From Microbacterium sp. 3J1 (GTDB lineage Bacteria > Actinomycetota > Actinomycetes > Actinomycetales > Microbacteriaceae), in assembly GCF_001049495.1 (NCBI RefSeq), contig NZ_CDWI01000011.1, positions 620,001 to 684,000 on the forward strand: a stretch of 64,000 nucleotides of DNA. Direction: 5' to 3'. Position 1 is the first letter of the stretch. Each line of letters opens with the position of its first letter. A program made the position numbers and the translations under genes. Below the pieces are notes generated by a model. That model had not been told where the DNA came from and did not search any database. It worked only from the letters and a program-made list of their open reading frames with translations. Of the stretch, positions 4,578 to 26,161 are shown in pieces.

Positions 4578-4579
4578 AC

Positions 4580-5572: not shown

Positions 5573-5597
5573 CCACCACCTCTCACCAGGAGCAACC

Positions 5598-9580: not shown

Positions 9581-9608
9581 GGCTTTTCACCACAGAGAGA
9601 GATCGCAC

Positions 9609-11689: not shown

Positions 11690-11690
11690 C

Positions 11691-12026
11691 ATGGCCCAGA
11701 AGCACCGGACTCCCTCGGAGTATCAGCGCAATGCCCTCGCGCCGAGCCTCATCGCCGCCGCCATCCTTTTCCTTGCCCCGACACTGATCCTTGCCGACTG
11801 GGCGCCACTCGTTCAGTTCGTTGCAGCAATCTTCGCCCTCATCGTCGCCTGGTTCGCTTTCCAGGCGCGCCACTGGTGGTGGATTCCCGTGTTCCTAGCG
11901 ATTGCCGTTCTCTGGAACCCCGTGGCTCCGTTTCCATTCTCGGGTCCGATATGGACCGCCGCGCAACCGGCCGCGGCCGTGATCTTCTTGGTCGCGGGTG
12001 CCACGATCAAGGTTGTCCGCAAGTGA
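11691..12026 (+). CDS. Small membrane protein, DUF6804-like
   Basis: A 111-residue protein with three to four membrane segments and Trp-rich loops (FQARHWWWIPVF and AVLWNPVAPFPF). It fits small actinobacterial membrane proteins of the DUF6804 type, with no known function. It starts 1 bp after the lspA stop, so it belongs to the same transcript. About 138 bp without a recognisable gene follows. Confidence 0.75.
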   Translation: MAQKHRTPSEYQRNALAPSLIAAAILFLAPTLILADWAPLVQFVAAIFALIVAWFAFQARHWWWIPVFLAIAVLWNPVAPFPFSGPIWTAAQPAAAVIFLVAGATIKVVRK

Positions 12027-12164
12027 CCACTGCCCGCTCCAACTTTCCCCGGTGGACAGTGAGTGTCGTGTCGAAGTCATCGTGACCGCCGCAGCGAGTA
12101 TCCGGCTGGCTGTCGCGGGAACCTGCCGGCACCGGGCCGAAGCCTTTGAGATGGGTTCGTCCGC

Positions 12165-13109
12165 GTGAAGATTGAGCTTCCGGACGCACCGCCGACCCTC
12201 GAGACGTTGCTGGCCCCCGTGGCCATCGATGTGCCGGTGCTACCCCTGGTCGCCGCGCTGCTCGCCACCGGCTACGTCTTGGGGGCGATCACGCTCTGGA
12301 GAGAAGGACGTCGGTGGCCGGTGTGGCGAACGATCTGCTTCGTTTTGGGGTGCGTGGTGCTGGCGGCGGTCACCGGCCTAGGTGTAGAGGCCTACGGGCA
12401 CTCCCTGGTATCGGTGTTCATGTTTCAGCAACTGACCCTCATGATGACGGTGCCCCCGCTCCTGGTCCTCGGTTCTCCCGGGTCGCTCCTGCTCCGGGCG
12501 ACACCTCACCGCGGGGTGGGGCGGACCGTCCTCGCCGTGGCGCACAGTGGCTTGCGTAGCTCCGCGGCGAGATGGGCGCTGAGCCCATGGTGCACAGTCC
12601 CGCTCTACCTGCTCGCGTTCTACGGCCTCTACCTCGCCAACGCGGCGGATGCGATCTTAGGTTTGCCAGGCGGTCACGCGGCGCTGGAAGTCGCCTTCCT
12701 GCTCGCTGGGGTTCTCTTCACGATTCCGATCCTCTCGTCTGATCCGTTGCCGATCCGGCTCAGCCATGCGGGCCGAGCGCTCGACGTCTTTGCCGAGGCT
12801 GCACTTCACGCCTTCTTCGGGGTCTTCCTCATGATGGGCAGCACGGTCCTCGTCGCGTCATTCGTCGCACCGACCGAAGCACTCGGGATCAGCCCGCTTG
12901 AGGATCAGCGACTGGCCGGCGGCCTGGCATGGTCGTACGGGGAAGCACCCACGGTCTTGATGCTGATGTACGTCATGCATCGGTGGTTCCGCGACGATAC
13001 CGCGAAGGCGTCCGCCGCTGACCGGTACCGAGATCTCCACGGGGACAGCGATCTCGACGCGTACAACGCGTACCTTCGGAAATTGGACGCCGATGGTCCG
13101 CAACGTTGA
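12165..13109 (+). CDS. ctaG: CtaG-type cytochrome c oxidase assembly protein
   Basis: A 314-residue, about seven-helix protein of the Bacillus-type CtaG (caa3_CtaG) family, linked to copper delivery to haem-copper oxidases. Family signs are HSLVSVFMFQQLTLMMTVPPLLVLGSP... in the first half, the HAFFGVFLMMGS region, and WSYGEAPT near the end. It begins at GTG 12165. The lnt gene starts inside its last codons (overlap 17 bp). Another CtaG domain is fused to CopD downstream. Confidence 0.88.
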   Translation: MKIELPDAPPTLETLLAPVAIDVPVLPLVAALLATGYVLGAITLWREGRRWPVWRTICFVLGCVVLAAVTGLGVEAYGHSLVSVFMFQQLTLMMTVPPLLVLGSPGSLLLRATPHRGVGRTVLAVAHSGLRSSAARWALSPWCTVPLYLLAFYGLYLANAADAILGLPGGHAALEVAFLLAGVLFTIPILSSDPLPIRLSHAGRALDVFAEAALHAFFGVFLMMGSTVLVASFVAPTEALGISPLEDQRLAGGLAWSYGEAPTVLMLMYVMHRWFRDDTAKASAADRYRDLHGDSDLDAYNAYLRKLDADGPQR

Positions 13110-14691
13110 GACGCAAGAGGTCGCACTCACTCGCGCCGGTGCGATGTCGAAAAGCGTCGGCGCGCACAGCAACGGCAGACACCTCCGTCTACCGTTCCCC
13201 GTCGCGCTGGCCGCATCCGTCCTCGCAGGCGCGGCGCTCGATCTCGCGTACCCGCAGGTGGGCTGGTGGCCACTTGCATTCGTCAGCGTGGCGGTAGCCC
13301 TTTGGACACTCGTCGGGCGTTCGCTCCCTTCGGCGTTCCTCATCTCCGTTGCCTTCGGCGCAGCCTTCTTCCTCTTCCACCTCTCGTGGGTGTCGACCTT
13401 TCTCGGTCCGCTCCCGTGGGTCGCGCTTGCGGGCCTACAGTCCATCCTCTTCGGCGCGGGCGGGCTTCTCATCACGCTCGCTTACCGCCACGGTCGGCAC
13501 CTTCGTCGCCTGAGCGGGATCCTGCTTCCCGCATGGGTTGCAGGGTTGTGGGTGCTTCGCGAAAGCGTGATGGGGTCATGGCCGTATGGAGGGTTTCCGT
13601 GGGCCCGGACAGGTCTTGTGCTCGTAGACTCGCCCTTTGTCGAAACTGCGTCGTGGCTTGGGACTACAGGCCTCTCGTTCCTGCTCGTGTTCACGTGCGC
13701 CAGCGTTCTGGAAGTGGCTCTTCGACGACGGTGGCAACTCATCATTGCGCCGGCAGCGGTGCTCCTAGTGATGCTCGTGATCCCTTTGTTCCCTACGCAG
13801 GCCACCGGCAACTTGCGACTCGGATGGGTTCAGGCGAACGGTCCCAGCGGATACTTCGATCACAAGGCGCCCGGAGACATCCTTATTGCCCAACTCGACG
13901 CGACCGAGCCACTATTGGGGCAGGACATGGACGTCCTCGTCTGGCCGGAGGGATCAGTCGACGCCGACCCGCTCAACGACACACCCGCGGCTGCCCGACT
14001 TGATCGCGTCGTGAAAGCCACAGGCGCGGAGTTGCTCGTGAACGCAGCGACCACCCGCGGCACACAGACCTTCAATACCTCTTTGCTGTGGAACTCCCGC
14101 GGTGCCGACCAGCTTTATGACAAGGCCCATCCCGTCCCCTTCGGCGAGTACGTTCCAGACCGCTGGTTCTTCGAGAAGCTCGCGCCCGATCTCTTGCGCT
14201 TGATCCAACGGGAGTACACGCCGGGATCGAACCCTCCGACAATGGACCTCGCGAAAGCCCGAATCGGTCTCGCCATCTGTTTCGACGTCATCTACGACGA
14301 TGTGATCCGCGACGGGGCGCTCTCTGGGGCAGAGCTCTACGTGTTTCAAACCAACAACGGAGACTTCCGCGGAACCGACGAAAACCTGCAGCAACTGGCA
14401 ATCGCACGCATGCGTGCCATCGAGACCGGGCGCACGGTAGCCAATGTCTCCACCACCGGCACCAGCCAGATCATCAGCAAGGACGGCACCACGATCTCCG
14501 AGCTCGGAGAGAACACGACCGGCGCTCGAATAAGTGAGGTAACGCTGAACACCGGAATCACGGCCGCCGTCCTACTCATGCCCTGGATCGCCCCAGTACT
14601 GGGCGCCCTCAGCATCCTCGGTTTCGCCGCAGTCCGACTCGCGCCCACACTGCTTTCACACACGACACTGAAGGATCGACGAGCTCGATGA
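13093..14691 (+). CDS. lnt: Apolipoprotein N-acyltransferase
   Basis: A 532-residue integral membrane acyltransferase that adds the third acyl chain to lipoproteins. Several N-terminal helices are followed by a nitrilase-type domain with the catalytic triad: Glu in VWPEGS (about residue 285), Lys in YDKAHPVPFGEYVP (about 343) and Cys in ICFDVIYDD (about 396). The start ATG 13093 overlaps ctaG; ATG 13144 is also possible since neither has a strong ribosome site. Lnt of E. coli was first known as CutE, a copper-tolerance locus, which makes its place in this copper block notable. Confidence 0.93.
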   Translation: MVRNVETQEVALTRAGAMSKSVGAHSNGRHLRLPFPVALAASVLAGAALDLAYPQVGWWPLAFVSVAVALWTLVGRSLPSAFLISVAFGAAFFLFHLSWVSTFLGPLPWVALAGLQSILFGAGGLLITLAYRHGRHLRRLSGILLPAWVAGLWVLRESVMGSWPYGGFPWARTGLVLVDSPFVETASWLGTTGLSFLLVFTCASVLEVALRRRWQLIIAPAAVLLVMLVIPLFPTQATGNLRLGWVQANGPSGYFDHKAPGDILIAQLDATEPLLGQDMDVLVWPEGSVDADPLNDTPAAARLDRVVKATGAELLVNAATTRGTQTFNTSLLWNSRGADQLYDKAHPVPFGEYVPDRWFFEKLAPDLLRLIQREYTPGSNPPTMDLAKARIGLAICFDVIYDDVIRDGALSGAELYVFQTNNGDFRGTDENLQQLAIARMRAIETGRTVANVSTTGTSQIISKDGTTISELGENTTGARISEVTLNTGITAAVLLMPWIAPVLGALSILGFAAVRLAPTLLSHTTLKDRRAR

Positions 14692-15191
14692 ATCTTTCTC
14701 GTACCCTGCTTGCCGGCGCTGCAGCACTGGGAATCGCTTCGGCACTCGCCGGGTGTGCGCCAACCGTTCATATGGAACCGGCGATCTCCGCCAATGACCC
14801 CGCGTGCGCGGAGGTCATCGTCCGCCTCCCGGCGTCGCTCGGGGAACAGTCGAGGGTGTGGACGGACGCGCAGGCAACCGCTGCGTGGGGGACGCCGAGC
14901 GCAGTCCGCCTCACCTGCGGGGTCGGAGCTCCGCCGCCGACGGATCAGCAATGCGTCAGCCTCGGTGGAGCGGAATGGATCGTAGACGAATCGGAAAGCC
15001 CGAATCTGCTCATGACGACATATGGACGAGAGCCCGCCGTGCAGGTCTCCGTCGACACGACCACAATCTCAGCCGACAGCGTTCTCGAGTCCCTCGCCGG
15101 GGCCGTGCAACAGATACCGGCGACGAGCGGATGCGCCGTCGCCACCACCGGCGATCCCACGGACGCCGATGCAGGAGCGGACGCGCCGTGA
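14688..15191 (+). CDS. DUF3515-like lipoprotein
   Basis: A 167-residue lipoprotein. The signal peptide ends in the lipobox LAGC (Cys about 23). The remainder shows the DUF3515 pattern: DPACAEVIVRLPASLGE, AAWGTPSAVRLTCGVGAPP, and paired cysteines that may form disulfides. It overlaps lnt by 4 bp (ATGA) and copD by 4 bp (GTGA), and is an obvious local client for LspA and Lnt. No function is known. Confidence 0.85.
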   Translation: MNLSRTLLAGAAALGIASALAGCAPTVHMEPAISANDPACAEVIVRLPASLGEQSRVWTDAQATAAWGTPSAVRLTCGVGAPPPTDQQCVSLGGAEWIVDESESPNLLMTTYGREPAVQVSVDTTTISADSVLESLAGAVQQIPATSGCAVATTGDPTDADAGADAP

Positions 15192-17080
15192 GTTACTCCG
15201 TACTTCGGGTTGCCGGCCCCACAATTCTCATCGTCACTGCAGTCCTCGCCCTCGCTCTCGCCTTGGTCATCGGCCACGGTGCTGCTCCACGACTTATCAG
15301 CGACCCCGGACCGCTGGTTCGATGGGGACTTCCCCTCGCCAAGCTGCTCGTCAATCTCTCTGGGGCTTTAATGGCGGGCTCGCTCGTGCTGGCCTCCTTT
15401 GCGCTCGTCGCTGGAACGAAGCCCTTCATGGTGAGCTTGGACACGGCGTCAGCAGGCGCGGCCGCTCTGACCCTTGCCAGTGCTGCCGTCGCGTTTCTGA
15501 CATTCCTGTCTTCCTTTAATGCGAAGGTGGATCTAGGGGCAGAGTTCGGTGCACAGCTCGGTCGATATCTTTTGGAAACCGAGCTCGGCCGCGCTTGGCT
15601 CGTCACCGTGATCTTCGCCGCCGTCGTCACCGTGCTCGCGTTCGCCGTGCGAGGGTACGGCTCAGTGATGTTCACGACAATCGTCGCGTTGATCACGTTG
15701 GTTCCGATGGCGACTCAAGGTCACTCCGGGGAGCTGGCGAATCACGACGCTGCGGTGATGTCACTGGTGCTTCATGTCCTCGCCGCCGCCATCTGGTTAG
15801 GAGGACTGCTCTTGCTCGTCCTCCTGCGACCAGCGGTCTCACCAGCGCTGCTCGGCAACCTGCTGCGCCGATACTCGACAGTGGCCCTGGTGACATTCGT
15901 CGTGGTCGCGATCTCCGGCTACTTTCGCGCGCTCACCGCCCTGGGGCGCTGGGACGAGCTTGCAACTCCCTACGGTGCAATCCTCATCTCGAAAGTGCTC
16001 GCTCTGGTAGTGATGGGCGTTCTCGGCGCGCTGTACCGGCGGCGCCTTATCGCAGCGGCGAGTGGCGGCTCGCGAGTGTTCTGGGTCTTCGTCTGCATCG
16101 AACTCGCGTTCATGGGTATCGCCAGCGGTGCGGCGGCGGCGCTCGCGCGCACGGCGGCTCCGGCGGACATAGCCCCCGCCGCGCAGTCCACTGCCGCCGA
16201 GATCCTCACCGATGGACCAGTGCCTGCGCCGCTCACAGGCGTCCAATGGTTCGTGGCCTGGAGCCCGGATCTGCTGTGGCTGTTCGTCGTCGGTTTCGCA
16301 TCGCTCCTCTACGCCATCGGCATTCGGCGATTGCTGCAGGCGGGGCAGCGATGGCCCGCACGGCGCGTAGCGAGTTGGGTCGCAGCCATGATGCTGTTGT
16401 TGTGGGCTACCAGCGGGGCGCCGGCGGTCTATGGCCACTACCTCATCAGCATGCGGATGCTCGCCGTCTGCCTTCTGCTCGTCGCTATCCCGCTTCTTCT
16501 CTCTTTCGCAGCTCCTGTCTCACTTGCCGGCCGAACCATGCACCCACGCAGAGATGGCTCTCGTGGACCCCACGAGTGGTTGTCGCTCGTCGAGGGTTCT
16601 CCTGTGATCCGCTGGATGCTCCGCCCAACCAGCGCAGGCTTGCTGTTCGCTGTCACCTTGTGGGGACTCTTCGCGACAGACGCCCTGCGCTGGTCGCTCT
16701 ACGATCAACTGGGTTATGAACTCGTGATCGCCTTGCTGCTGGCGGTCGGGTATCTACTCATGGCCTCTATGACCACCGCGAGCGTGGATGATGAACGACC
16801 GCGCCGCTGGGCCGCTCTCATCCTGGTGGGAGTCGCCGCGACGACGACAGCCCTCGCCGTTCTCGTCGCCGGTCGTCCGGACCTGATGGCCGCCGAATGG
16901 TACGGAGCGATGGGGCGGACATGGGGGACTGAGCCTCTCGAAGATCAGGCTCACGGCGGAAGGATTCTGTTGTCCATCGGTGTGGTCCTAGTTCTTCTGG
17001 CTGCAGGGCAGCAGGTCAGCTGGGTTCACCACCAGAAACCCCTCCCATCAACGCCTACAACGAACGGAATCAAGAAATGA
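15188..17080 (+). CDS. copD: CopD-CtaG fusion: copper import and oxidase assembly membrane protein
   Basis: A 630-residue, multi-helix fusion. The N-terminal half (about 1-330) is CopD-like, with conserved HSGELANHDAAVMSLVLHVLAAAIWLGGL carrying histidines in helices. The C-terminal half (about 350-600) is a second CtaG-type domain (YGHYLISMRMLAVCLLLVAIPLLL and the WSLYDQLGYEL region). Such fusions occur in mycobacteria and other actinobacteria. It would take Cu from CopC and pass it inward or to oxidase assembly. It starts at GTG 15188 and overlaps both neighbours by 4 bp. Confidence 0.88.
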   Translation: MSYSVLRVAGPTILIVTAVLALALALVIGHGAAPRLISDPGPLVRWGLPLAKLLVNLSGALMAGSLVLASFALVAGTKPFMVSLDTASAGAAALTLASAAVAFLTFLSSFNAKVDLGAEFGAQLGRYLLETELGRAWLVTVIFAAVVTVLAFAVRGYGSVMFTTIVALITLVPMATQGHSGELANHDAAVMSLVLHVLAAAIWLGGLLLLVLLRPAVSPALLGNLLRRYSTVALVTFVVVAISGYFRALTALGRWDELATPYGAILISKVLALVVMGVLGALYRRRLIAAASGGSRVFWVFVCIELAFMGIASGAAAALARTAAPADIAPAAQSTAAEILTDGPVPAPLTGVQWFVAWSPDLLWLFVVGFASLLYAIGIRRLLQAGQRWPARRVASWVAAMMLLLWATSGAPAVYGHYLISMRMLAVCLLLVAIPLLLSFAAPVSLAGRTMHPRRDGSRGPHEWLSLVEGSPVIRWMLRPTSAGLLFAVTLWGLFATDALRWSLYDQLGYELVIALLLAVGYLLMASMTTASVDDERPRRWAALILVGVAATTTALAVLVAGRPDLMAAEWYGAMGRTWGTEPLEDQAHGGRILLSIGVVLVLLAAGQQVSWVHHQKPLPSTPTTNGIKK

Positions 17081-17742
17081 CACACAGCAGGGCACCGTGG
17101 TATGCCGCCGCAGTCGTAACGGTTGCCGCGATCTTGACGTGGGGACCCGCGTCCGTGGCTATCGCCCACGACAATCTCTCGGACGCGTTCCCCGCCGCGG
17201 ATGAAACCGTCACGCAAGTCGACGCTGTTGTTCTCACGTTCAGCGGTGAGCTCATCGACTTCAGCCAGTCGAGCTTCGCTCAGGTCCAAGGTCCTGACGG
17301 CCTGTACTACGAGTCGTCTTGCTCCACCATCAACCAGAACGTGCTCTCCACTCCGGTCAGCCTCGGCCCCTCCGGCCTGTACTCCGTTGTCTGGACAGCC
17401 GTGTCCAGCGACGGTCACCCTATCTCCGAGGGATACACGTTCACCTACGTAGCGCCCGATTCCAGCGCCCCGGGCCTCGGATGGGACCTGCCGGCGTGCG
17501 GCAACGAGACAACCCGCGCGCAGCCCCAGCTGGAAACGGCTGAGCCGTCGCCGTCCGCAAGCCCGGGCATCACCGATGCAGCCTCACCGCCGACTTCGCC
17601 AGCAGCGACGCCGTCGAGCTCCGAGAACGCGGCTGCAATCGTGGTGCCCATCGTTCTGACGGTTGCGGTCGTCGGCGCGCTCGTCGTCGTGACGACGTGG
17701 GTCGTGGGTCGTGTGCGCCGACGGCATCCTGGGGAGGAGTAG
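17077..17742 (+). CDS. Second CopC-like copper-binding protein with membrane anchor
   Basis: A 221-residue protein laid out like the first CopC: signal peptide ending before HDNLSDAFPAADE, a CopC beta-sandwich, and the closing motif VWTAVSSDGHPISEGYTFTY. It differs in an inserted Cys (ESSCSTINQN) and a later Cys in LPACGNET. A Pro/Ala/Ser linker, a single helix and a basic tail follow. It overlaps copD by 4 bp and ends the copper operon. The sequence changes character immediately after its stop. Confidence 0.88.
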   Translation: MTHSRAPWYAAAVVTVAAILTWGPASVAIAHDNLSDAFPAADETVTQVDAVVLTFSGELIDFSQSSFAQVQGPDGLYYESSCSTINQNVLSTPVSLGPSGLYSVVWTAVSSDGHPISEGYTFTYVAPDSSAPGLGWDLPACGNETTRAQPQLETAEPSPSASPGITDAASPPTSPAATPSSSENAAAIVVPIVLTVAVVGALVVVTTWVVGRVRRRHPGEE

Positions 17743-17745
17743 CGG

Positions 17746-17808
17746 TTATCCGTCGCGGCGGATGGAAGCCGTCCGCTCCGCTAGGGCGTCGAAGAGATCG
17801 TCGGTCAC
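17746..17808 (-). pseudogene. 20-codon stub overlapping the MbcA/ParS-like gene; possible truncated third gene
   Basis: A GTG at 17808 overlaps the TGA of the upstream minus-strand gene (GTGA), the same coupling used throughout the window. It reads VTDDLFDALAERTASIRRDG and then stops (TAA 17746-17748), three bases from the end of the copper operon. The amphipathic start and the tight overlap suggest the beginning of a gene whose body was lost where the copper cluster joins. It could also be a chance short reading frame. Confidence 0.35.
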
Positions 17809-18188
17809 GAACGCCAAGCCCAGGCGTCGTGCTCGGCATCGCGCAGCACCTCGTCGAGGCGTCCGACGCGTAGCGCATCGATGGCGCGCGGCGGATCTTT
17901 GTCAGGGAGCGCGATGTTCAGCCACTTTGCCCAGGTCCAGTGGCCTGCGGTCCCTGTCTGCAGTACCGCCAGGACGTCGCTCAGCCCGTCCACAACGCGA
18001 CCGTCGTGGAGCTGGAATGCCGGGTACAGCGTGACTCCGTCACCGGTTTCGAGCACGAGCAGCTGCAGAGTCTCGCCTGCGTCAGCGACCTTGGCCTCCG
18101 TCCATCCGAGCGTCCGCGCAAGACCCGTCGTCGTGTAGCAGGGACCGATAATCTTTGCCCACGGGTTCGGCGATTCGTCATCGGTCAT
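17805..18188 (-). CDS. MbcA/ParS/Xre-type antitoxin-like protein
   Basis: A 127-residue protein. The N-terminal part (YTTTGLARTLGWTEAKVADAG) looks like a helix-turn-helix. The C-terminal part contains GLSDVLAVLQTG, WTWAKWLNIALPD, PPRAIDALRVGRLDEVLRDAE, which has the layout of the toxin-binding domain of MbcA/ParS antitoxins (W..N..L...P.D.L..G....V). Such antitoxins normally pair with a RES-domain toxin, but none is present. Its start overlaps the phosphoesterase stop by 4 bp. The family call is a motif-level judgement. Confidence 0.55.
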   Translation of the reverse strand: MTDDESPNPWAKIIGPCYTTTGLARTLGWTEAKVADAGETLQLLVLETGDGVTLYPAFQLHDGRVVDGLSDVLAVLQTGTAGHWTWAKWLNIALPDKDPPRAIDALRVGRLDEVLRDAEHDAWAWRS

Positions 18189-19204
18189 AGCTTGCCCTCG
18201 GGGTCACCCTTCGGGGGACGAGTGTGACGGCGACGGACGTCTTCGATGAGTTCGTCGAGGGTACGCCGCCCGTCGACGTAGTCTCGGGCATCGCGGATGG
18301 CATCCGGAGTTGGCGCGAGCCCGTCCAAGGCCCCTGAGTGCAGCGCTTCAGCGGCGCCCTTCGCACGCTTCTCACGCGCGAGGTAGTCGTCCTCCCACTG
18401 GTCCGCCATGCTGCGGATGATGGCAAGGCTTGGCGTCGCCATCCTCAACGTCTTCATATCGAGGATTGCGAGGTTCGCCTCCTGACCGTCTTTTCCCAGG
18501 CTCGCGACCCGGCGACCGTCTTCAGTCTTGCCGCCGCCCGGTGCATGCAGGTGCCCATGAGCAAGCAGCTCGGGACGCACCGCATCCCACACTTCACTGA
18601 TTCGCGCGCGTGACGCGGCGGACGCCTCGAGCGCAGTCTTGGTGAACCAATTCGGATTAGTGCGGAGGATCTTCTGAACGGATCGAACCGGGGTGTTGGC
18701 CGGGGACTCATGGGTGAGCATCAGGTCCGCGGCGCCGCCGGCGACTGCTGCCGAGACGTTTTCGTCGGTCACTGCCTCATCCGGCCACCAGGTCAGCCCT
18801 TCCTGTCGGGACTCACGGTCAACGGATGAAGCACCCCCGAGGGCGAGAACTGAGCGTCCGCCGATGGTGAGGCGTGCCGGCCGCGGGAGTATCCAGGTGA
18901 ACTTCGAGACGCGGACCGCTTCGCCGGGGTGCTTCTCGAGGAGTGGCGTGATTTGGCCAAAATCCTCGTGGTTTCCGACTACGACGTAGAAGCGGTCGAT
19001 GCTGGTGTCGGCGAAGATCTCGTCGATTGCGCCCGGCGGCATCCACCAGTCGCCGAGGTGCAGCATCGTTTTGACGTCGGGCGCGAGGGTGGGCAACACC
19101 CGGGATATCATCCGAGCCCACCCCTGATTCCCATGCCAGTCCCCGCACACCGCGACTCGTTGATCGGGGAGGTCGATGGCGGGCGTGTGCTCGAGAGTTC
19201 TCAC
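18185..19204 (-). CDS. Calcineurin-like metallophosphoesterase with VbhA-like C-terminal segment
   Basis: A 339-residue protein. All metal-site motifs of the calcineurin fold are present in order: GDWHGN, LHLGDWW, VVGNHEDF, LTHES and HGHLH. The last 40 residues (LAPTPDAIRDARDYVDG...LDELIEDVRRRH) match the pattern of VbhA-type antitoxin helices, which bind Fic toxins in other systems. It starts at GTG 19204 after AAGG and is coupled to the MbcA/ParS-like gene. Together they look like a toxin-antitoxin or phage-defence remnant, but no such function is shown. Substrate unknown. Confidence 0.75.
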   Translation of the reverse strand: MRTLEHTPAIDLPDQRVAVCGDWHGNQGWARMISRVLPTLAPDVKTMLHLGDWWMPPGAIDEIFADTSIDRFYVVVGNHEDFGQITPLLEKHPGEAVRVSKFTWILPRPARLTIGGRSVLALGGASSVDRESRQEGLTWWPDEAVTDENVSAAVAGGAADLMLTHESPANTPVRSVQKILRTNPNWFTKTALEASAASRARISEVWDAVRPELLAHGHLHAPGGGKTEDGRRVASLGKDGQEANLAILDMKTLRMATPSLAIIRSMADQWEDDYLAREKRAKGAAEALHSGALDGLAPTPDAIRDARDYVDGRRTLDELIEDVRRRHTRPPKGDPEGKL

Positions 19205-19461
19205 GCGTGGCCTTTCTGCCCAGGCTCGTTCGACGCCTCAAGGGCTCGGTGATGGATCGAGAACCATTTCGATAGTTGTCGTCACCACATTGCCGAAGTC
19301 CTCCATCCAGAGCGCGGAGAATCCGCATCAAGTGCGAGCGAGCCGCTGTTCGAAACTGTGAGATGGACCAGTATGTGCGTGTTTGGATCAAGTTAGCAGA
19401 ATTTGTGATCACTAACGTCACATGTTCGCAGAAGTGGGAGAGTGCCGCGCACAAGTCAGAC
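19205..19461. other. Intergenic region between the phosphoesterase and transposase-like gene A
   Basis: A 257-bp gap between divergent genes. It contains an inverted repeat GTTAG...CTAAC enclosing the 8-bp palindrome GTGATCAC at about 19390-19415, a possible operator or end sequence. The transposase frame is open upstream through this region, so the true start could be earlier than 19462. I see no RNA gene and no convincing terminal inverted repeat. Confidence 0.35.
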
Positions 19462-21111
19462 ATGAACAACTCAGCTATCAACATGACCATCAACAACTCC
19501 GACGCGTTCACCGCTGTGAACGACCGATTCCTTCAGCTCGACTCTCGTCCGCACGCTCCCATCCCAACCGCGACCCTTCAGGAAGCCATGGCTCTCGTCG
19601 ATGCATCGGGTGTCGCAGACCTCTTCGTCGAATGGGCCACCGAGGACGGGAAGACGGTCCGAGCGACGCGCCTGTCTGCTCGACAGGTGCTCGCCGTATG
19701 GATCGCCCTTGAGCTCGCCCAGAGGGAGTCGACCATCTCGAACGTGACTTCGGCGCTGAGTGAGCACCTGACGCCCGCACGCCGCCGAGCGCTCGGCTTG
19801 ACGGACGACTTCTTGAAGCACAGCCGGGAGCAGGTCGCGCGCATGGTCCGCCGTGCGACGGTCGCCCTCACCGACCTCATGGACGCGTTCCCGACCTCCA
19901 CCCGCGGACGACGTCTCACAAAGGGTGAGTGGGATGGTGTTCTGGCAGAACGCGCCAGCATCTCGGTCGAACTCGAGCAGCGGCGCAAGCGGTTTCTTGC
20001 CTTCGCCAACAGGCTCCTCGAAGCCCAGCACAAGATCGCAGCAGTGAGTGACTCACAGCAGGGGGTGAGTGTCGTGGTCGACAGCCGCTTTCGGAGCGCC
20101 GGGGTCCGTGGGGTCGGACAGCGGCGCATGGACGCACTCGGTGACACCGGGCGCGTCTCGCTGGAGCCTGACGCCGGCTTCTGGGTCCAGGACCCGACGG
20201 GTGCGGACCGCCAGGCGCGGTATGGGTGGGAGGACGAGCTCGCCGTGCTGATCTCCAGCGATCCTGGCCAGCCGCGCTCCGTGCCGAACATCGTCATCGG
20301 CTTCAACCCGCACCTGCCGAGCTCCGGCTTCGCGACCGCGGCGGCGGAGATGCTCCACGACATCGCAGGACGCGGTGCTGGACTCGACCACGTCGTCCTC
20401 GACCGTGCATACATGGCAACTCGCCCGGATGTCCTGCGCACCCCGCTGATGAATCTCGGGGTGAAGCTCGTCGCGGACTACCCGACGAACAGACTCGGGG
20501 TTCAGGCGTTGTCGGACACGGGAATCCTCGTCGATGGCACTTGGTATGCCCCGTCGCTACCGGTCGAGTTGCAGGATGCGGGGAGGGAGTTCGCCAGCGT
20601 CCGCGGCGGTGCCGCACTCAGTGACCGTATGGAGGCGGCGAAGGTGTTGAAGAAGAAGGTGACCGCCCGCGCAGAGTTCTCCCGGCAGCATCCCCGTGCT
20701 ACGGATGTGAGCGACCGCGACGAGCAGCACTACCCGTACAAGTCCGAGCAATGGAACAAGGTGAACGGCATGGGCCGGGGAGCATTCGAGACCTACGCCG
20801 CAGCGTTGTCCCGCACCGAGCAGAATCGGCCCGGACGTCGACGGATGCGGGGCGCCACTGCTCTCGCGTTCCTCGGCTTGCTCGAGGTCGTCGGAACGAA
20901 CGCACGCATCCTGGAGGACTTCCGTGCAGCCCAGCAGCGTCCTCGCACTCGCACAGTGGTGCTTCCCCCGCTGGCACCGGCCGCCGCGCCGCCGGTGTCG
21001 CGTGAGTCGTCGGACTGCCGACCGAAGCAGTTGCGGCAACCGGTTCTGATGTGCCCGGCCGTCGGCAAGACGTCGTCATCCCCATGCAAGAAGCGAGAAG
21101 CCGGCAACTAG
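19462..21111 (+). CDS. DDE transposase-like protein A
   Basis: A 549-residue protein taken from ATG 19462. Features of an RNase H-fold DDE transposase are seen: D207 in VVVDSRF, D314 in VVLDRAYM, and E443 in MGRGAFETYAAAL. Between them are VSLEPDAGFW and GVKLVADYPTN. It is clearly related to transposase-like protein B (24006-25853), sharing LTPxxxxxLG, SxEPDAxFW, LDHVxxDRAY and KLVxDY, but is diverged throughout. I do not recognise a named IS family. A strong hairpin terminator follows the stop. No flanking inverted repeats were found by eye. Confidence 0.7.
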   Translation: MNNSAINMTINNSDAFTAVNDRFLQLDSRPHAPIPTATLQEAMALVDASGVADLFVEWATEDGKTVRATRLSARQVLAVWIALELAQRESTISNVTSALSEHLTPARRRALGLTDDFLKHSREQVARMVRRATVALTDLMDAFPTSTRGRRLTKGEWDGVLAERASISVELEQRRKRFLAFANRLLEAQHKIAAVSDSQQGVSVVVDSRFRSAGVRGVGQRRMDALGDTGRVSLEPDAGFWVQDPTGADRQARYGWEDELAVLISSDPGQPRSVPNIVIGFNPHLPSSGFATAAAEMLHDIAGRGAGLDHVVLDRAYMATRPDVLRTPLMNLGVKLVADYPTNRLGVQALSDTGILVDGTWYAPSLPVELQDAGREFASVRGGAALSDRMEAAKVLKKKVTARAEFSRQHPRATDVSDRDEQHYPYKSEQWNKVNGMGRGAFETYAAALSRTEQNRPGRRRMRGATALAFLGLLEVVGTNARILEDFRAAQQRPRTRTVVLPPLAPAAAPPVSRESSDCRPKQLRQPVLMCPAVGKTSSSPCKKREAGN

Positions 21112-21120
21112 CGCCAACCG

Positions 21121-21153
21121 AGAACGGGCTGTCCACCGCGGACAGCCCGTTCT
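21121..21153. terminator. Hairpin terminator after transposase-like gene A
   Basis: A perfect 14-bp stem (21121-21134 with 21140-21153) with a 5-base loop, ending in TTCTT, lies between two convergent genes and would serve both. Confidence 0.85.
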
Positions 21154-21190
21154 TGCATTCCCGCCAAGGCGAGGCGCGTGGTCGCTCCTT

Positions 21191-21619
21191 TCAGAGTGTG
21201 CGCGTCGCGTAACCGAGAAGTCGGGCGCGCTCAGCCGTGAGCCGGCCCGCAGCTTCTGCGACGCGCTGTCGGGAGAACCAATGGGCTAGGGCTGACTCGC
21301 CGGGGAGTGCGCCTCGAATCCGCGGTGCTCGGCCTTCGGTCGCGATGAACCGACGCAGCTCGTCTGCTCGCTCCTCCCAGGCATCTGCGCGTGGGCGTTC
21401 GCTCCACCCGGGCAACGCCGCGAGCGCGACCTTCTGATCCGCGGTCAAGGTCGTTGCGCGGCGCTGGCCGGACGCCCATCCGACGATGTCGGCGGGAACG
21501 CCGTCGCTGAGACGCGGAAGGCGTCCGAGGGCGTGCGCCTGCTCCGCGACCTTTTCGTAGTTGGCCCACCAAGGGCCGCGGTCTCGTCCCGATCCGGGGG
21601 TCTTGCGTGGTGTGTGCAT
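21191..21619 (-). CDS. Protein with two helicase-associated (HA) domain repeats
   Basis: A 142-residue protein built from two copies of the helicase-associated domain (PF03457-like). Repeat one runs WWANYEKVAEQ...GRLPRLSD...IVGWASGQRR...LAALPGW; repeat two runs WEERADELRRFIATEGRAPRIR...LAHWFSRQR...RLLGYA. These small three-helix modules are thought to bind DNA. Here there is no helicase domain attached. It faces transposase-like A across a shared terminator and is divergent from recombinase-like protein A. It is probably an accessory DNA-binding protein of the mobile region. Confidence 0.7.
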   Translation of the reverse strand: MHTPRKTPGSGRDRGPWWANYEKVAEQAHALGRLPRLSDGVPADIVGWASGQRRATTLTADQKVALAALPGWSERPRADAWEERADELRRFIATEGRAPRIRGALPGESALAHWFSRQRVAEAAGRLTAERARLLGYATRTL

Positions 21620-21633
21620 GCGTTAGGCATGCG
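21616..21633. promoter_or_regulatory. Tandem GCATGCG elements at the HA-protein start
   Basis: GCATGCG occurs at 21616-21622 and again at 21627-21633, 11 bp apart (one helical turn). GCATGC is itself palindromic. The first copy overlaps the start codon of the HA-domain gene, so this may be an operator. No binding protein is known. Confidence 0.35.
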
Positions 21634-21763
21634 CGGTCCTGATCCGCGGGAGTGACACGCCGCGGGCGATGCCCGTGCTCGCAGTTGATGCGACGTGTCC
21701 GCGAGCGGGAGTCCTACCGTTGCGGAGTCGCAGGTGCCGAGCTCGAGTGCAGGGGAGTGGATC

Positions 21764-22636
21764 ATGACTTCGCCGAAGCCGTCCATGAAAGGTGAGAACG
21801 CCAGCCCGCCCGAGGCCGATGCGCTCCGGTTCGCCGAGAGCGTGGTCGACGATGTCGCGCGGAGGTTGTCATATCGAACAGCTGATCTGTTGACGGCGGT
21901 GCAGCACCACGCGCGGTGGGCGCATGTGGTTTCGGGGTTGCCGTTGGAGCGGGAGTTCCTCTTTCGGAAAGACGTCATCGCCGTCGCTGTACAGCAACTG
22001 CCCATGCGCTCCGAAGCCTCGCTCGGTCGGCGGCGCGCTGTGTTGCTTCGGGTTGCGGAGGAGCTCGGAGTCGTGGAGCGGTCACTACCCCCGCTGTACG
22101 GGTCGGAGCCGAGCGCACCCTATACAGGTCTCGAGGTGGCGGAGCTCCGCCTGTGGGCGGCCGTGCAACGTGAAAGCCGACGGCGGGACGCGTGGGCGCT
22201 ACTGGCTCTCGGGGTAGGAGCCGGACTCGCCGCATCAGAGGTCTGCGCGGTCAACGCGCGGGACATCACGGAGGATGGCGCGCGGGTGCACGTCTTCGGT
22301 CCGCGTGAACGAGTTGTCCCTGTCGATGAAGAGTGGACCGTCACCCTGGCCGAACTCGTCGCCGGCCCCGACTGTGGTCCGCTGTTCGTCCCGGGCGTTC
22401 GCTGGTACAAGAACAAGATCGGCGACTTCGTGCGAGTGACTCACGGGGACCAGCTTCGACCGATGCCGCAGCGGATGCGCGCCACCTGGCTCGTGCGGCG
22501 GATGGCAGAGGGGATGCCGGTTCAGGATCTCAAGTACGCCGCGGGGATCAGGTCGTTGGGCGCTCTCGCTCGATTCGAGCGATATCTTCCTGCACCTTCT
22601 GTTGCGCCTGCGCCAAGTAGTCCCGCACGTCGGTGA
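21764..22636 (+). CDS. Tyrosine-recombinase-like protein A, catalytic residues degenerate
   Basis: A 290-residue protein with the two-part layout of tyrosine recombinases: a helical N-terminal core-binding-like part and a catalytic-like part. About residue 150 it reads LGVGAGLAASEVCAV, the equivalent of TGLRxSE, with the catalytic Arg replaced. The C-terminal box reads PQRMRATWLVRRMAEG, keeping only one Arg, and no convincing nucleophilic Tyr follows, though RFERYL contains one Tyr. AGGGGAG precedes ATG 21764. It is paralogous to the protein at 23110-24009. It is probably DNA binding without strand exchange; that is inference. Confidence 0.6.
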   Translation: MTSPKPSMKGENASPPEADALRFAESVVDDVARRLSYRTADLLTAVQHHARWAHVVSGLPLEREFLFRKDVIAVAVQQLPMRSEASLGRRRAVLLRVAEELGVVERSLPPLYGSEPSAPYTGLEVAELRLWAAVQRESRRRDAWALLALGVGAGLAASEVCAVNARDITEDGARVHVFGPRERVVPVDEEWTVTLAELVAGPDCGPLFVPGVRWYKNKIGDFVRVTHGDQLRPMPQRMRATWLVRRMAEGMPVQDLKYAAGIRSLGALARFERYLPAPSVAPAPSSPARR

Positions 22637-23000
22637 GTCGTTGCCGTTCTCGATGCCGCTCTTCGGACGCGGGCCACGCAACCGCCGAGAACGGGACTCC
22701 GGCAGCATCGAGCAGAAGCATCAGATCGTCCAGGCCCGCGGGAGTGTTCCCGTTCATCAGGCGCGACAACCGTTCGCGTCCCCACCCGGTGCGCTCAAGA
22801 AGATCTACGCGCTTGAATCGCCCCGCCTTGAGCCCGGCGAGCACCAGTCCGACCGCGGAGTCCTGAAGCTGAGCTGCGCGGCTCCGGGCTCGTTCGACCG
22901 GATCATCGGGGAGCTTGCTCCAGGTTCGTCGTACTCCGTGGTGGCCGAACCGACCGGGATTGGGTGCATAGGCCCGGGGAGTGCGTCGAGTCGTAGGCAT
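22548..23000 (-). CDS. XRE-like DNA-binding protein with C-terminal coiled coil
   Basis: A 150-residue protein. A basic, disordered-looking N-terminus is followed by a helix-turn-helix resembling Cro/XRE proteins (RVDLLERTGWGRERLSRLMNG, then LDDLMLLLDAAGVP). The last 35 residues are charged and heptad-like (EERHRERQRLTDVRDYLAQ), a probable coiled coil. Its 3' end overlaps the 3' end of recombinase-like A by 89 bp on the opposite strand. It is divergent from recombinase-like B and likely regulates the 23.0-23.1 kb promoter region with its paired repeats. Confidence 0.55.
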   Translation of the reverse strand: MPTTRRTPRAYAPNPGRFGHHGVRRTWSKLPDDPVERARSRAAQLQDSAVGLVLAGLKAGRFKRVDLLERTGWGRERLSRLMNGNTPAGLDDLMLLLDAAGVPFSAVAWPASEERHRERQRLTDVRDYLAQAQQKVQEDIARIERERPTT

Positions 23001-23109
23001 ACCTCCATCCTTGCAGTTCGAGTGACGGGAAGGATCACATCAGCGCGATCTATGACTGCAAGAGTCATACTTTCGCGAGCGATGCGAAAGGGCCGCGCAC
23101 AGGGGCGGC
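23001..23109. promoter_or_regulatory. Divergent control region of XRE-like gene and recombinase-like B, with stacked inverted repeats
   Basis: Three symmetrical elements are packed in 109 bp: CTTGCAGT at 23010-23017 with its complement ACTGCAAG at 23055-23062; ATGACT-GCAAG-AGTCAT at 23052-23068; and TTTCGC-N7-GCGAAA at 23071-23089. They lie between two divergent starts, as expected for operators of the XRE-like protein or of the recombinase-like protein. Function is inferred. Confidence 0.5.
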
Positions 23110-24009
23110 ATGACGAAATCCTCTCCAGTCACCAACTCCCACTACAACCCGATGCTCGGATCGGCGACTTGGACGCGCGTTCAGCCCTTCGTCGACGAAA
23201 CCATCGCCGAGCGATGCACCGATATGAGTGAGCGTCAGATCGACGAGCACCAGCGGTCGCTCGCGTTCTTCGGAGACTGGATCGTGCAGACAGGCATGGT
23301 GGAGCTCCACGAGGCTCTGTCGGAAGACATCATCGACGTCTACACGGTCGACCGCGCGAAAGAGGTCGTTCCGGTCATGGCCGAACGGGAGCGCAAGATG
23401 CTTCGGCGTCTGGCTGGGATGACCCCGTCGGTCGAGAAGCGGGCGGTCTCGACCGCGTCGGAGCCTGAGCGCCCGTACTCCGACGATGAACTCGCGACCT
23501 TCCACCACTGGGCTTCCTACCAGCGCACTGACCACCAGCGGGCAGCGTGCATGGCGATCTTCGCCCTCGGCGTCGGGTGTGGCTTGACCTCTGGCGAGAT
23601 CCTCGCCGTGCGAGGCAGGGACCTGCTCGACCTCGACGGAGTCCTCGCCGTCCGCGTTGCGCGCGACGGGCGAATCGTTCCTGTCGTCGACCGCTGGGAG
23701 GAGTGCATTGCCAAGGTCATGGCTGATAACCCGACCGATGCACTCGTCGTGGCGCCTCATGCAACTCACCGGTATGGGGCGATGCAACATGTCCTTCGGA
23801 CGTCGAAGGGAGAAGTGAAGCCCACCGCGGCACGCCTGCGGATGACGTGGCTGGTCGCCCATCTCGACGCCGGAACGCCCCTCGCCGCACTGTTGCCCGC
23901 ATCCGGGATGACGTCTACGGACTCGCTCCGTCGGGCGATGAGCTTCGTCCGGCCAATTTCGGCCGACCGGTCCTACGAGGCGCTCCGCATGACGGGTGCG
24001 GGCCGATGA
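23110..24009 (+). CDS. Tyrosine-recombinase-like protein B, catalytic residues degenerate
   Basis: A 299-residue paralogue of the protein at 21764-22636. The N-terminal part resembles a core-binding domain (MSERQIDEHQRSLAFFGDWI). Near residue 153 LGVGCGLTSGEILAV replaces the canonical TGLRxSE, so catalytic Arg I is lost. The later box reads TAARLRMTWLVAHLDAGTP, keeping Arg but not the flanking His residues, and no catalytic Tyr is evident. Its TGA overlaps the ATG of transposase-like B (ATGA 24006-24009), so the two are translationally coupled. It is likely a DNA-binding partner of that transposase. Confidence 0.65.
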   Translation: MTKSSPVTNSHYNPMLGSATWTRVQPFVDETIAERCTDMSERQIDEHQRSLAFFGDWIVQTGMVELHEALSEDIIDVYTVDRAKEVVPVMAERERKMLRRLAGMTPSVEKRAVSTASEPERPYSDDELATFHHWASYQRTDHQRAACMAIFALGVGCGLTSGEILAVRGRDLLDLDGVLAVRVARDGRIVPVVDRWEECIAKVMADNPTDALVVAPHATHRYGAMQHVLRTSKGEVKPTAARLRMTWLVAHLDAGTPLAALLPASGMTSTDSLRRAMSFVRPISADRSYEALRMTGAGR

Positions 24010-25853
24010 GAACGGACAAACCCAAGAAGAACGATCTCTTCCTCGACGACAACGCTGAACTCGAGGAGATGCTCTTCGACCCTCGTGCTCGCGGACCGGT
24101 CGCGACCGGAATGGTGCAGCAATGCGCCAAGCTCATCGACAGCGTCGGCATTCCTGAGCTGCTCGCCCAGTGGGACCACGAAGTTCATGCACCGATCCGA
24201 GGGGGCAGGCCGGCCTCCGTGCCCATGCGGGGGATCCTCATCCTGTGGCTGGTGCTGGCCTGGGAGCACCAGCCCCTGCAGCTCAAGAAGCTGCGGGACA
24301 TCATCACCGAACGGTTGACGCCCGAGACTGCCGCCATTCTCGGCATCACCCTTGATGCGACAGTCAGCCCGGACGGCTGGTACGAGCGCGCCCGCCGGTC
24401 GACCAACCGCATCATGAGCCTCATCGACTACCACCCCATCTTCAACAGGCATCGCCGCCTCCAGAAACAGGAGTGGGACCGCGTCCGCGCGGATCGCGAA
24501 GAGATCGCCGAGGTGCTCTCCGTCCGCGCGCACCGCGCCGACGAGCTGATGAACCTGCTCCTGCACGCCACCTACCTGTGGATGCCCAAGCGCCTGCGCT
24601 CCGACAAGGTCTCCGTCACCATCGACGCGACGGCTGTTCGCGTCCATGCGCGAGGTGTCGGCGTCACCCGACTTTCCAAGCTCGGAGCCGAGGAGACCGT
24701 CTCCATCGAACCCGACGCGGCGTTCTGGGCGCGGGAAACCGATGACCACTCTGATGATGGCAAGACGTCCATCAGGAAGATGAAGTACGCCTACGAACTC
24801 GAGCTGGGAGTTCTCACGAGCAATGACCCGACGCGTCCCGAGGACATCCCGCACATCGTTGTCGGCATTGGACATCACGCCCCGGCGTTTGGACCGGGCA
24901 AAGCGGCACGAGCGATGTTCGAGAACATCGTGAGTCGCGGTCTCCAGCTCGACCACGTCATCGGGGACCGCGCGTACCTTCCAGGCGCCAAGGAAGCCGA
25001 CCTTCAGAACTATCTTCGCTCCACCGGTGCGAAACTCGTCATGGATTACCACAAGAACTTCCTCGGCTACCAGGACAGCTACGCAGGGGCCATCATGGTC
25101 GACGGCAACTGGTACTGCGCCTCGATGCCGCAGACGCTCATCGACGCGAGCAAGCGCTACCGGGCCGGCGAGGACGCTGACGACAAGAACCGTTCGTTGA
25201 CGAAGTCGCAGCGCGCTGCTCGGGCCAGACAGCGGCTCGAGCAATGGCTCAGCGATGTCGAAGCACGAGCACCATACCTCTTCAGCACGAAGGGTGCGCA
25301 GAAGGCAAACGGGAAGAGGCCGTGGTCCTGCCCAGCGGGCGCCAACACCCCCACCGCTTCCTGCCCGCGCAAGCCGAACAAGATCGCGTCGGGCAAGGTG
25401 CCTCTCACGATCATCAGGCGCCCCGTGGAGGGCCCTGCGAAGGTGTGCGACAACGTGACCAGTGTTCACTTCCCGGCCGAGGCGGGCGGCAAGTTCGCCC
25501 AGGAGTATCAGTACGGCTCCAAGCCGTGGCGCGAGATGTACGGCCACGGCCGGAACAGCGTCGAGTCCTTCAACGCCTATCTCAAGGATGGCGGTACACA
25601 CGCCCTTGAAGACGGTTCGCGCCGTCGCCTCCGTGGCTCCGCTGCACAGTACTTCCTCGCGACGATGACCGTGGTCGCAGCGAACCTCGACAAGATCCGG
25701 GACTTCGCCGCTCAGAAGATCGAAGACGGTCTCGACTACGAGGCGGGGATTGAAGCTCCGCGCGCCAAGAAGCGCAAGCCACGCCGCAGCTCCCCTCAGC
25801 AGCGCGTCACGCACCAGCGCGGTCGAGCAACACGTAATCCCGTCCGTACATAG
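24006..25853 (+). CDS. DDE transposase-like protein B
   Basis: A 615-residue protein. The acidic triad of a DDE transposase can be placed at D207 (VTIDATAV), D321 (HVIGDRAYL) and E520 (GHGRNSVESFNAYLK). VSIEPDAAFW and GAKLVMDYHKN are shared with transposase-like A. An insert of about 60 residues before the Glu contains CPAGANTPTASCPRKPNK, with Cys residues that could bind metal. The C-terminus is strongly basic. It is coupled to recombinase-like B by a 4-bp overlap. The IS family is not recognised. Confidence 0.72.
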   Translation: MRTDKPKKNDLFLDDNAELEEMLFDPRARGPVATGMVQQCAKLIDSVGIPELLAQWDHEVHAPIRGGRPASVPMRGILILWLVLAWEHQPLQLKKLRDIITERLTPETAAILGITLDATVSPDGWYERARRSTNRIMSLIDYHPIFNRHRRLQKQEWDRVRADREEIAEVLSVRAHRADELMNLLLHATYLWMPKRLRSDKVSVTIDATAVRVHARGVGVTRLSKLGAEETVSIEPDAAFWARETDDHSDDGKTSIRKMKYAYELELGVLTSNDPTRPEDIPHIVVGIGHHAPAFGPGKAARAMFENIVSRGLQLDHVIGDRAYLPGAKEADLQNYLRSTGAKLVMDYHKNFLGYQDSYAGAIMVDGNWYCASMPQTLIDASKRYRAGEDADDKNRSLTKSQRAARARQRLEQWLSDVEARAPYLFSTKGAQKANGKRPWSCPAGANTPTASCPRKPNKIASGKVPLTIIRRPVEGPAKVCDNVTSVHFPAEAGGKFAQEYQYGSKPWREMYGHGRNSVESFNAYLKDGGTHALEDGSRRRLRGSAAQYFLATMTVVAANLDKIRDFAAQKIEDGLDYEAGIEAPRAKKRKPRRSSPQQRVTHQRGRATRNPVRT

Positions 25854-26000
25854 CCCACGGCTCCGCTCCACCAGTTAGATCACCGGCTCGAAGGTCGGCG
25901 TCAGCATGCCCAACTCCGGGTTCTGACGTCGCCCCCCGGGCCTTTTCTGTGGTCGGCGGTCGTCAGACTCCCTATGACTGTGCCCCTCGACCGGCACGAA
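25854..26000. other. Island end, no gene seen
   Basis: Between the last transposase-like gene and the tRNA terminator I see no open frame with a plausible start and no obvious direct repeat of the tRNA 3' end. This would be the place to look for an attachment remnant or a transposon end. Confidence 0.5.
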
Positions 26001-26036
26001 CGAGAAAAGCCGCCTGAAACCAGGCGGCTTTTCTCG
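26001..26036. terminator. Strong bidirectional hairpin downstream of tRNA-Arg
   Basis: A perfect 16-bp stem (26001-26016 with 26021-26036) with an AAAC loop, and A-run and T-run inside the stem arms. On the minus strand it follows the tRNA gene and probably ends that transcript; on the plus strand it would insulate the accessory region. Confidence 0.9.
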
Positions 26037-26088
26037 TATTTGGGGGTTGCGCGTACGTATTCACATACCATCCGCGTACAACCCGATG

Positions 26089-26161
26089 TGCCCCCGACAG
26101 GAGTCGAACCTGCGACCTACGGTACCGGAAACCGGCGCTCTATCCACTGAGCTACGGAGGC
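26089..26161 (-). tRNA. tRNA-Arg, anticodon CCG
   Basis: A 73-base cloverleaf on the minus strand. The acceptor arms GCCTCCG (5') and CGGGGGC (3') pair, with one G-U. The D arm is GCTC/GAGC, the anticodon loop reads TTCCGGT giving CCG (Arg, CGG codons), and the T arm has GGTTCGACTCC. The CCA end is not encoded. The anticodon stem has a C-U mismatch at its outer pair. It sits exactly between the accessory half and the housekeeping half, next to argS. Confidence 0.92.

Follow-up and report, generated by a model that had tools for sequence, protein, structure and literature searches.

A probable tRNA-homing DDE transposon with apparently inactivated tyrosine recombinases as partners in Microbacterium sp. 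3J1

Introduction

The closest precedent for the element described here is TnsF of the Tn7-like transposon Tn6022, an inactivated tyrosine recombinase that selects comM as target (PMC10293859). The element lies in Microbacterium sp. 3J1, where the analysed stretch of 64,000 nucleotides (the window, positions 620001-684000 of contig C11 in a 3.4-Mb genome) includes part of 31,834 bp of mobile DNA that ends beside a transfer RNA (tRNA) gene, tRNA-Arg(CCG). Next to this gene it encodes a DDE-type transposase (DDE2), preceded by two tyrosine-recombinase-like proteins (REC1 and REC2, of a family called REC below). An earlier reading of the same letters (the original prediction) had noted that two homologous recombinase-like proteins, starting at 21764 and 23110, share one region with two homologous DDE-type proteins, starting at 19462 and 24006, and all four open reading frames (ORFs) are confirmed. 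The element is probably a cargo-carrying DDE transposon with tRNA 3' ends as its home, in which inactivated tyrosine recombinases would serve as DNA-binding partners and most likely as target selectors.

The likeness to Tn6022 lies in a DDE transposon with cargo, one conserved gene as home and an inactivated tyrosine recombinase as helper (PMC10293859). The present system differs in having one IS4/IS1182-like DDE protein, in its targets, which are tRNA genes or the gene of transfer-messenger RNA (tmRNA), and in that no Tns protein was found among the 25 element proteins scanned with Pfam. The RECs, one or two per element and about 300 amino acids long, are also without the N-terminal zinc-finger region that PMC10293859 gives for TnsF. 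A Tn7-like element was considered and rejected, as no TnsC, TnsB or TniQ family appeared among those 25 proteins, the other ORFs standing outside the scan.

Single features are shared with several other systems. Tsy, a target selector related to tyrosine recombinases, differs in having no DDE protein (PMC10293859); the same paper names target plasmids with tRNA-Val and tRNA-Leu genes for Tn7-like CRISPR-associated transposons (CASTs). These CASTs resemble the present element as DDE transposons adjoining tRNA genes. They use selectors of the TniQ family together with the ATPase TnsC, whereas neither TniQ nor TnsC was detected among the 25 proteins scanned here. The elements named SEs and GInts encode Tfp or GinC, a recombinase-fold protein without the catalytic Arg-His-Arg-Tyr (RHRY) set, beside their mobility genes, but they move by active tyrosine recombinases and have no DDE transposase (PMC10214605). 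MrpR and YopR of SPbeta share the tyrosine-recombinase fold, whereas their role is that of a phage repressor outside any transposon operon (PMC10516654).

The DDE proteins resemble transposases of the IS1182/IS4 group (Tn5) in their DDE fold and in a cysteine-bearing insert between the second D and the E. A YREK-like signature is a further point in common. Classic IS1182/IS4 members are single-gene insertion sequences, whereas the elements here have REC partners, kilobases of cargo and an apparent home at tRNA genes. The parts have separate precedents and the combination was not found: the open-access literature, outside which most subscription papers and all preprints fall, yielded no DDE transposon with tyrosine-recombinase partners at tRNA genes beyond the Tn7-like cases named. 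Eukaryotic DDE transposons aimed at small RNA genes appear in it as the title of a cited reference. The novelty originally claimed would lie in this combination; an inactivated tyrosine recombinase as target selector had already been published as TnsF (PMC10293859).

The locus

The features at the right end of the element are the following.

1..26084: part of the 31,834-bp element inside the window; its left end lies 5,750 bp before the window (C11:614251)
19462..21111, plus strand: DDE1, a divergent second DDE transposase-like protein and probable relic (ORF, homology to DDE2)
21764..22636, plus strand: REC1, the upstream tyrosine-recombinase-like protein, with the second arginine (Arg-II) as sole catalytic residue kept (alignment columns)
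23110..24009, plus strand: REC2, the DDE-adjacent REC, with a predicted tyrosine-recombinase fold and Arg-II as sole catalytic residue kept (AlphaFold2 model, PDB matches, residues)
24006..25853, plus strand: DDE2, an IS4/IS1182-like DDE transposase with D207, D321 and E520 (alignment, model, profile matches of relatives)
26000..26037: hairpin just inside the right end, probably a terminator, with 17-bp arms that are 100% complementary (inverted-repeat search)
26050..26084, minus strand: right end, read inward from the tRNA as GGGTT and then two GTACGCG direct repeats (repeats by eye)
26085..26089: target site duplication GATGT, with its second copy at C11:614246-614250
26088..26161, minus strand: target tRNA-Arg(CCG), its 3' end facing DDE2 (ARAGORN)

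The REC2 stop and the DDE2 start overlap by 4 bp (ATGA). REC1 and REC2 are homologous (34% over 185 columns, E 3e-22), as are DDE1 and DDE2 (34% over 378 columns, E 3e-61). The two GTACGCG repeats, at 26079-26073 and 26056-26050, are 23 bp apart by eye.

Recombinase-like proteins

NCBIfam XerD matches REC1 with an E value of 0.0015 and REC2 with 0.0087, and PHROG gave an integrase family for REC1 (6.6e-6) and a value of 0.11 for REC2. A Pfam scan returned no match for either protein, and Pfam Phage_integrase matches 18 of 46 members of the family, REC2 itself excepted. The AlphaFold2 model of REC2, built on an alignment of 46 sequences, has a predicted local distance difference test (pLDDT) value of 89.9, and Foldseek found 59 matches for it at E ≤ 0.001; all of the 50 that were listed are tyrosine recombinases, and the matches include Cre, XerA, XerH and the Tn1549 integrase. 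On realignment the model superposes on Cre (1f44) with Z 15.6 and a root-mean-square deviation (rmsd) of 5.6 over 261 aligned residues, on the HP1 integrase catalytic domain with Z 15.4 and rmsd 2.6 over 155, and on XerA with Z 17.3, but with rmsd 16.2 over 239. REC2 as modelled has the tyrosine recombinase fold, composed of a core-binding helical domain and the catalytic-domain fold. The recombinase resemblance put forward in the original prediction is thus real, in view of the Phage_integrase matches and of the Cre/Xer-like model, although it is weak by sequence in the window; structure prediction had been proposed there as a check, and the REC2 model contains the fold.

The phage proteins MrpR and YopR, together with SroF, are also among these fold matches, which would suit a different role for the REC-fold proteins, as repressors or regulators of the transposase gene after the manner of MrpR/YopR. 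The overlap of REC and DDE would fit an autoregulated operon as well, but the window already contains a separate divergent helix-turn-helix (HTH) gene and the presence of two RECs per element is left unexplained; we consider such a role improbable.

At the columns of Arg-I, His-II, Arg-II, His/Trp-III and Tyr, the residues are A, Q, R, I and F in REC1 and T, A, R, M and A in REC2, the second Arg lying in both proteins within R[LM]RxTW. The loss of catalytic Arg, His and Tyr that had been noted is correct for Arg-I, His-II, His/Trp-III and Tyr, whereas the second Arg is kept. A census of the family covered 108 distinct REC rows, of which 106 have letters at all five columns; the columns were placed by motif, and individual rows may be wrong. 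Among these 106, Arg-II is R in 104, the Tyr column is Y in 45 and Arg-I is R in 18, while neither His-II nor His/Trp-III shows an H in any row and a single W occurs at His/Trp-III. The full R-H-R-Y set of an active tyrosine recombinase was found in 0 of the 106 proteins, and the REC family, judged from its residues, is predicted to be without strand-exchange chemistry.

DDE transposases

Curated profile models give no match for DDE1 or DDE2. Three acidic residues, D207, D321 and E520 in DDE2 numbering, are invariant in 25 of 25 aligned members and were named as the triad by motif, not by superposition. Foldseek searches with the DDE2 model (pLDDT 81.1, predicted template modelling score 0.82, alignment of 25) were weak, the best match being Mos1 with E 0.032, and after realignment of the candidates the Tn5 transposase ranks first (Z 15.8, rmsd 5.0, 298 aligned). 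The IS1182 model of NCBIfam (NF033551) matches 10 of the 25 members, with a best E value of 1.6e-6, and Pfam DDE_Tnp_1 matches two of them, DDE2 itself being matched by neither. DDE2 is a DDE transposase of the IS4/IS1182 group, and the DDE label first given to it is supported by the invariant triad and the Tn5-like model. In DDE1 most of the cysteine-bearing insert between the second D and the E is gone and no REC stands directly upstream; this protein is probably outside the REC-DDE pair, as an internal relic of an earlier copy.

Pairing of REC and DDE across genomes

Relatives of DDE2 are present in 46 of 249 genomes of the family (29 of 85 genera), with one to five matches per genome, and in at least 16 of 396 genomes of the phylum, where three candidates were scored for each genome. 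Wider regions were retrieved for 40 of these places, and DDE copies were clustered at 95% identity. When full-length DDE copies were sampled by DDE similarity alone, 31 of 35 had a REC within 300 bp upstream; loci found through a REC motif gave 7 of 8, and the combined set 38 of 43. Two or more RECs lie within 7 kb at 21 of the 35 copies, other elements encoding one. The four copies that have no REC within 300 bp are those of L051, where a REC stands at 1192 bp, and L070, DDE1 and the second copy in L073, the last two of which both sit behind a newer copy (L numbers are our labels for loci).

Approached from the other side, a REC-only DNA motif scanned over 84,980 species genomes gave 44 pieces, all actinobacterial by title. 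A REC is present in every one of the 44, and 37 encode a DDE protein as well. Two pieces without DDE (L118, L122) contain the upstream REC of elements whose DDE lies farther on, three (L124, L127, L137) continue for less than 1 kb downstream, and in L119 and L129 no DDE was found despite more than 1 kb downstream. In distant relatives of the phylum a REC again stands just upstream of many DDE copies, and one record of a Streptomyces plasmid has the pair annotated as two hypothetical proteins with a 4-bp overlap. The adjacency that the original prediction had proposed to survey is therefore found in both directions, around DDE copies (31 of 35) and around REC motifs (37 of 44).

The low copy number per genome, and copies at least 95% identical at tRNA-Ser in several Frigoribacterium genomes, would be expected of a host system that has been domesticated and stays, immobile, beside tRNA genes. 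Such a system is hard to reconcile with the occurrence in just 46 of 249 family genomes, the different tRNAs, the relics and fragments, a relative without the element and the target duplications described below, and we regard it as very improbable.

tRNA and tmRNA genes as targets

The distance to the nearest tRNA was analyzed in 51 clustered DDE copies that include the C-terminus and 700 bp downstream. In 42 of them the DDE stop is followed within 300 bp by a tRNA or tmRNA gene, always converging, at 96-296 bp (median 228); split by sample, the count is 35 of 41 for copies obtained through DDE similarity and 7 of 10 for those from the REC motif, and copies at one locus in related species are not necessarily independent insertions. 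Fourteen kinds of target are represented: Leu (cag, gag, caa), Ser (cga, gct), Met, Pro (ggg, cgg), Ala (tgc, cgc), Arg (ccg), Lys, Gly and tmRNA. Two loci, L126 and L083, stand at the tmRNA gene (ssrA), with the same spacing as at tRNA genes. Chance adjacency was rejected, as the 43 tRNA genes in 649 kb of loci give less than 1% for a converging tRNA so close by. Among 18 distant loci of the phylum, 12 have a converging tRNA or tmRNA at about 116-243 bp and six have none within 1.5 kb. Separate clades of the DDE tree occupy tRNA-Leu(cag) loci that share homologous distal flanks between genera, and repeated arrival at one site is therefore favoured.

Element ends and target duplications

The sequence right before the tRNA often contains a pair of short repeats, and its last letters are mostly CCC or GCC. 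Element ends were sought by a joint score of inverted end and target duplication, with 35 mismatched ends as controls, and the scoring was revised after near misses, a fixed offset being replaced by offsets of 0-2 bp from CCC with new weights. With these offsets, 10 of 36 loci score above all 35 controls, each with an exact 5-bp duplication, when about one would be expected by chance; they are the present element (WIN), L036, L038, L048, L054, L055, L056, L058, L062 and L074. Among 15 loci with about 8 kb or less of upstream sequence one passed, and among 21 with at least 21 kb nine passed. The elements measure 9.0 to 28.4 kb elsewhere and 31.8 kb here.

The left end of the present element reads GATGT followed by GGGTTGTACGC at C11:614251, and the right end CAACCC followed by GATGT at window position 26084. 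The left end is the inverted right end, 31.8 kb away, with a score of 21.0 against 15.8 for the next best in 50 kb, and the two have their first 11 bases in common. The last base of the GATGT duplication at 26085-26089 is the discriminator of tRNA-Arg, by reading of the acceptor stem. Immediately to the left of the other GATGT copy, a GC-rich hairpin and its T run resemble the tRNA terminators found at further copies of the locus; natural empty sites end in such a terminator-like hairpin as well. L158, a relative that lacks the element, has its tRNA about 58 bp from the conserved neighbouring sequence, and the 7.5 kb between conserved neighbour and left end here are apparently a separate insertion. 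These 7.5 kb (C11:606779-614245) encode heavy-metal P-type ATPase-like and MarR-like proteins, by eye (L162, L184). The inverted ends and short target duplication that mark a DDE transposon are both present at this locus, and the transposition system that had been proposed is supported by element ends with 5-bp target duplications.

The 3' ends of tRNA genes are classic sites of tyrosine integrases, and the region beside tRNA-Arg varies between genomes of the genus, as it would if an active integrase had placed an ordinary genomic island there and a stray insertion sequence lay beside it. Such an island is strongly disfavoured, and in our judgement hardly credible, because only 5 bp are duplicated, with no longer att core, and the ends are inverted repeats; moreover, the DDE gene stands at a fixed distance from many unrelated tRNAs and no active recombinase is present among the 25 element proteins scanned.

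In L036 and L074 older DDE relics end about 235 bp to the left of the new left end. This is the usual distance from DDE to element end, and therefore a new copy seems to enter on the tRNA side of the old one. The present element may also be a composite, with its left end from an older DDE1-carrying element and its right end from a newer one; against this, its two ends agree in the first 11 bases, and the sole candidate end seen just before REC1 is weak (window position 21692, score 14.8).

Mechanism and target selection

The pairing, the catalytic loss, the folds, the adjacency and orientation to tRNAs, the ends with their duplications and the relics at the expected spacing were computed, and they suggest the following mechanism. 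The Tn5/IS1182-like DDE protein would cut and join the element ends (GGG..CCC with short repeats), leaving a 5-bp duplication that ends on the discriminator base of the tRNA. The one or two upstream-encoded RECs would act as sequence-specific DNA-binding partners without strand exchange, and most likely would recognise the tRNA gene and bring the transposase there, a part played by TnsF in Tn6022. Each new copy would enter between the tRNA and its predecessors, causing relics to stack up.

Target choice follows descent. Quick trees were made for rows with a tRNA within 700 bp, 38 for DDE and 35 and 21 for the two REC sets labelled RecB and RecA. On the DDE tree the amino acid of the target changes 9 times, against a minimum of 17 in 200 shuffles; the RecB tree has 7 changes (minimum 17) and the RecA tree 6 (minimum 9). 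Target identity thus clusters on the trees, and the choice of target is passed on with the operon.

The main rival to target selection by the RECs is that the dead recombinases bind the repeats at the element's own ends and build a paired-end complex, while the tRNA is located by the DDE protein, alone or in complex with REC. By eye, the right-end repeats are short, often two, some of them palindromic (TTCGCGAA), and differ between elements, a variability that fits sites of a fast-evolving binding protein; tyrosine recombinases naturally bind repeats of this kind. On the other side, left and right ends agree mainly over the first 10-18 bp, the Tn5 transposase, which is the nearest fold, binds its own ends, and one-REC and two-REC elements both stand at tRNAs. 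End binding appears unlikely to us, if still worth serious consideration, and the selector role, suggested by the analogy with TnsF, is favoured. The original prediction had seen in the recombinase fold a DNA-binding or target-site partner of the transposase in a two-protein system. The fixed position at tRNA 3' ends agrees with such a partner, although binding to the target and binding to the ends are not separated; the two-protein scheme survives as the REC-DDE pair, with two RECs in many elements and DDE1 as a likely relic.

Several points weigh against a tRNA-homing transposon guided by its RECs. The fixed offset passes only 5 of 36 loci (L036, L038, L056, L058 and WIN), L055 and L058 are marginal (15.8 against 15.7 and 16.4 against 16.0), and 26 of the 36 gave no ends with duplications. 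The DDE tree follows the target just as the REC trees do and does not separate the role of REC from that of DDE, and in L070 the DDE gene is 224 bp from tRNA-Leu(gag) with no REC found upstream. In 13 of 106 RECs Arg-I, Arg-II and Tyr are all kept and the His is missing, so the loss of activity rests on the absent His residues. Present-day transposition, and its cut-and-paste or copying mode, we infer. In nine of the 51 copies the 300 bp after the DDE gene contain no tRNA. Two of the nine, DDE1 and one in L073, are relics that lie behind newer copies, and the tRNA is farther off in L046 (642 bp), L069 (2768 bp) and the fragment L037 (5953 bp). No tRNA was found downstream of DDE in L049, L106, L135 and L136, and Rfam gave no further RNA at the tested copies without a nearby tRNA, L135 being outside that test. 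As L049 and L136 have 7.8 and 5.3 kb of downstream sequence without tRNA or Rfam RNA, other targets may exist.

On balance we lean towards a separate class of ATPase-free homing transposons across Actinomycetota, independent of Tn7/TnsF, that would combine a Tn5/IS1182-like DDE transposase with dead recombinases as retunable target readers. If so, transposons outside Tn7 would have recruited inactivated tyrosine recombinases as partners without the usual AAA+ ATPase bridge, and actinobacteria would have their own equivalent of Tn7, with metal-resistance and anti-phage cargo and a safe harbour at tRNA and tmRNA genes. This could account for tRNA islands that have no active integrase, and such islands may have gone unread because REC and DDE were annotated as hypothetical in one record. 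A site-specific DDE system of two or three proteins with many natural specificities would also be a tractable model for rewiring a target selector.

Cargo and accessory genes

The remaining features of the element are the cargo and two small genes divergent from the RECs.

302..17742: cargo region (Pfam domains, from which functional names are inferred)
21191..21619, minus strand: helicase-associated (HA) domain protein, divergent from REC1 (Pfam PF03457, 3.5e-11)
22548..23000, minus strand: small HTH protein, divergent from REC2, a candidate regulator (Pfam HTH_31, 6.5e-4, under Pfam's cut-off)

The cargo encodes a FAD oxidoreductase, a TrxB-like protein, two SBF transporters (one of arsenite type), ArsR/phosphatase-type proteins, two cation efflux proteins, a DsbA-like protein, two CopC, CtaG, CopD-CtaG and an apolipoprotein N-acyltransferase. 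The Pfam families of the element as a whole are of arsenic- and copper-resistance type, together with thioredoxin-like proteins, a ResIII-type helicase and an MFS transporter, and its cargo is, by these domains, putatively of the metal-resistance type. An odd combination occurs at 18185-19204, where the C-terminal part of a metallophosphoesterase matches the antitoxin family VbhA (4.9e-9).

The cargo of relatives was sampled as 42 ORFs of at least 180 amino acids from the left parts of six other elements (L164, L169, L172, L174, L177, L181). Their Pfam families, among the 25 of 32 that were listed, include AAA/OLD, restriction subunits, SIR2, AIPR and FRG. A defence library gave strong matches in these six to anti-phage families, namely IetS, IetA, type I restriction, AbiU and Old, mostly with one ORF each, among the 25 of 92 families listed.

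An HA-domain gene is located within 3 kb upstream of REC in 11 of 42 loci, divergent in 10, and may be an optional fourth component of the system. Matches to the HTH protein are weak and all in Frigoribacterium loci. A divergent HTH gene is also found directly upstream of the REC-DDE pair on the Streptomyces plasmid.

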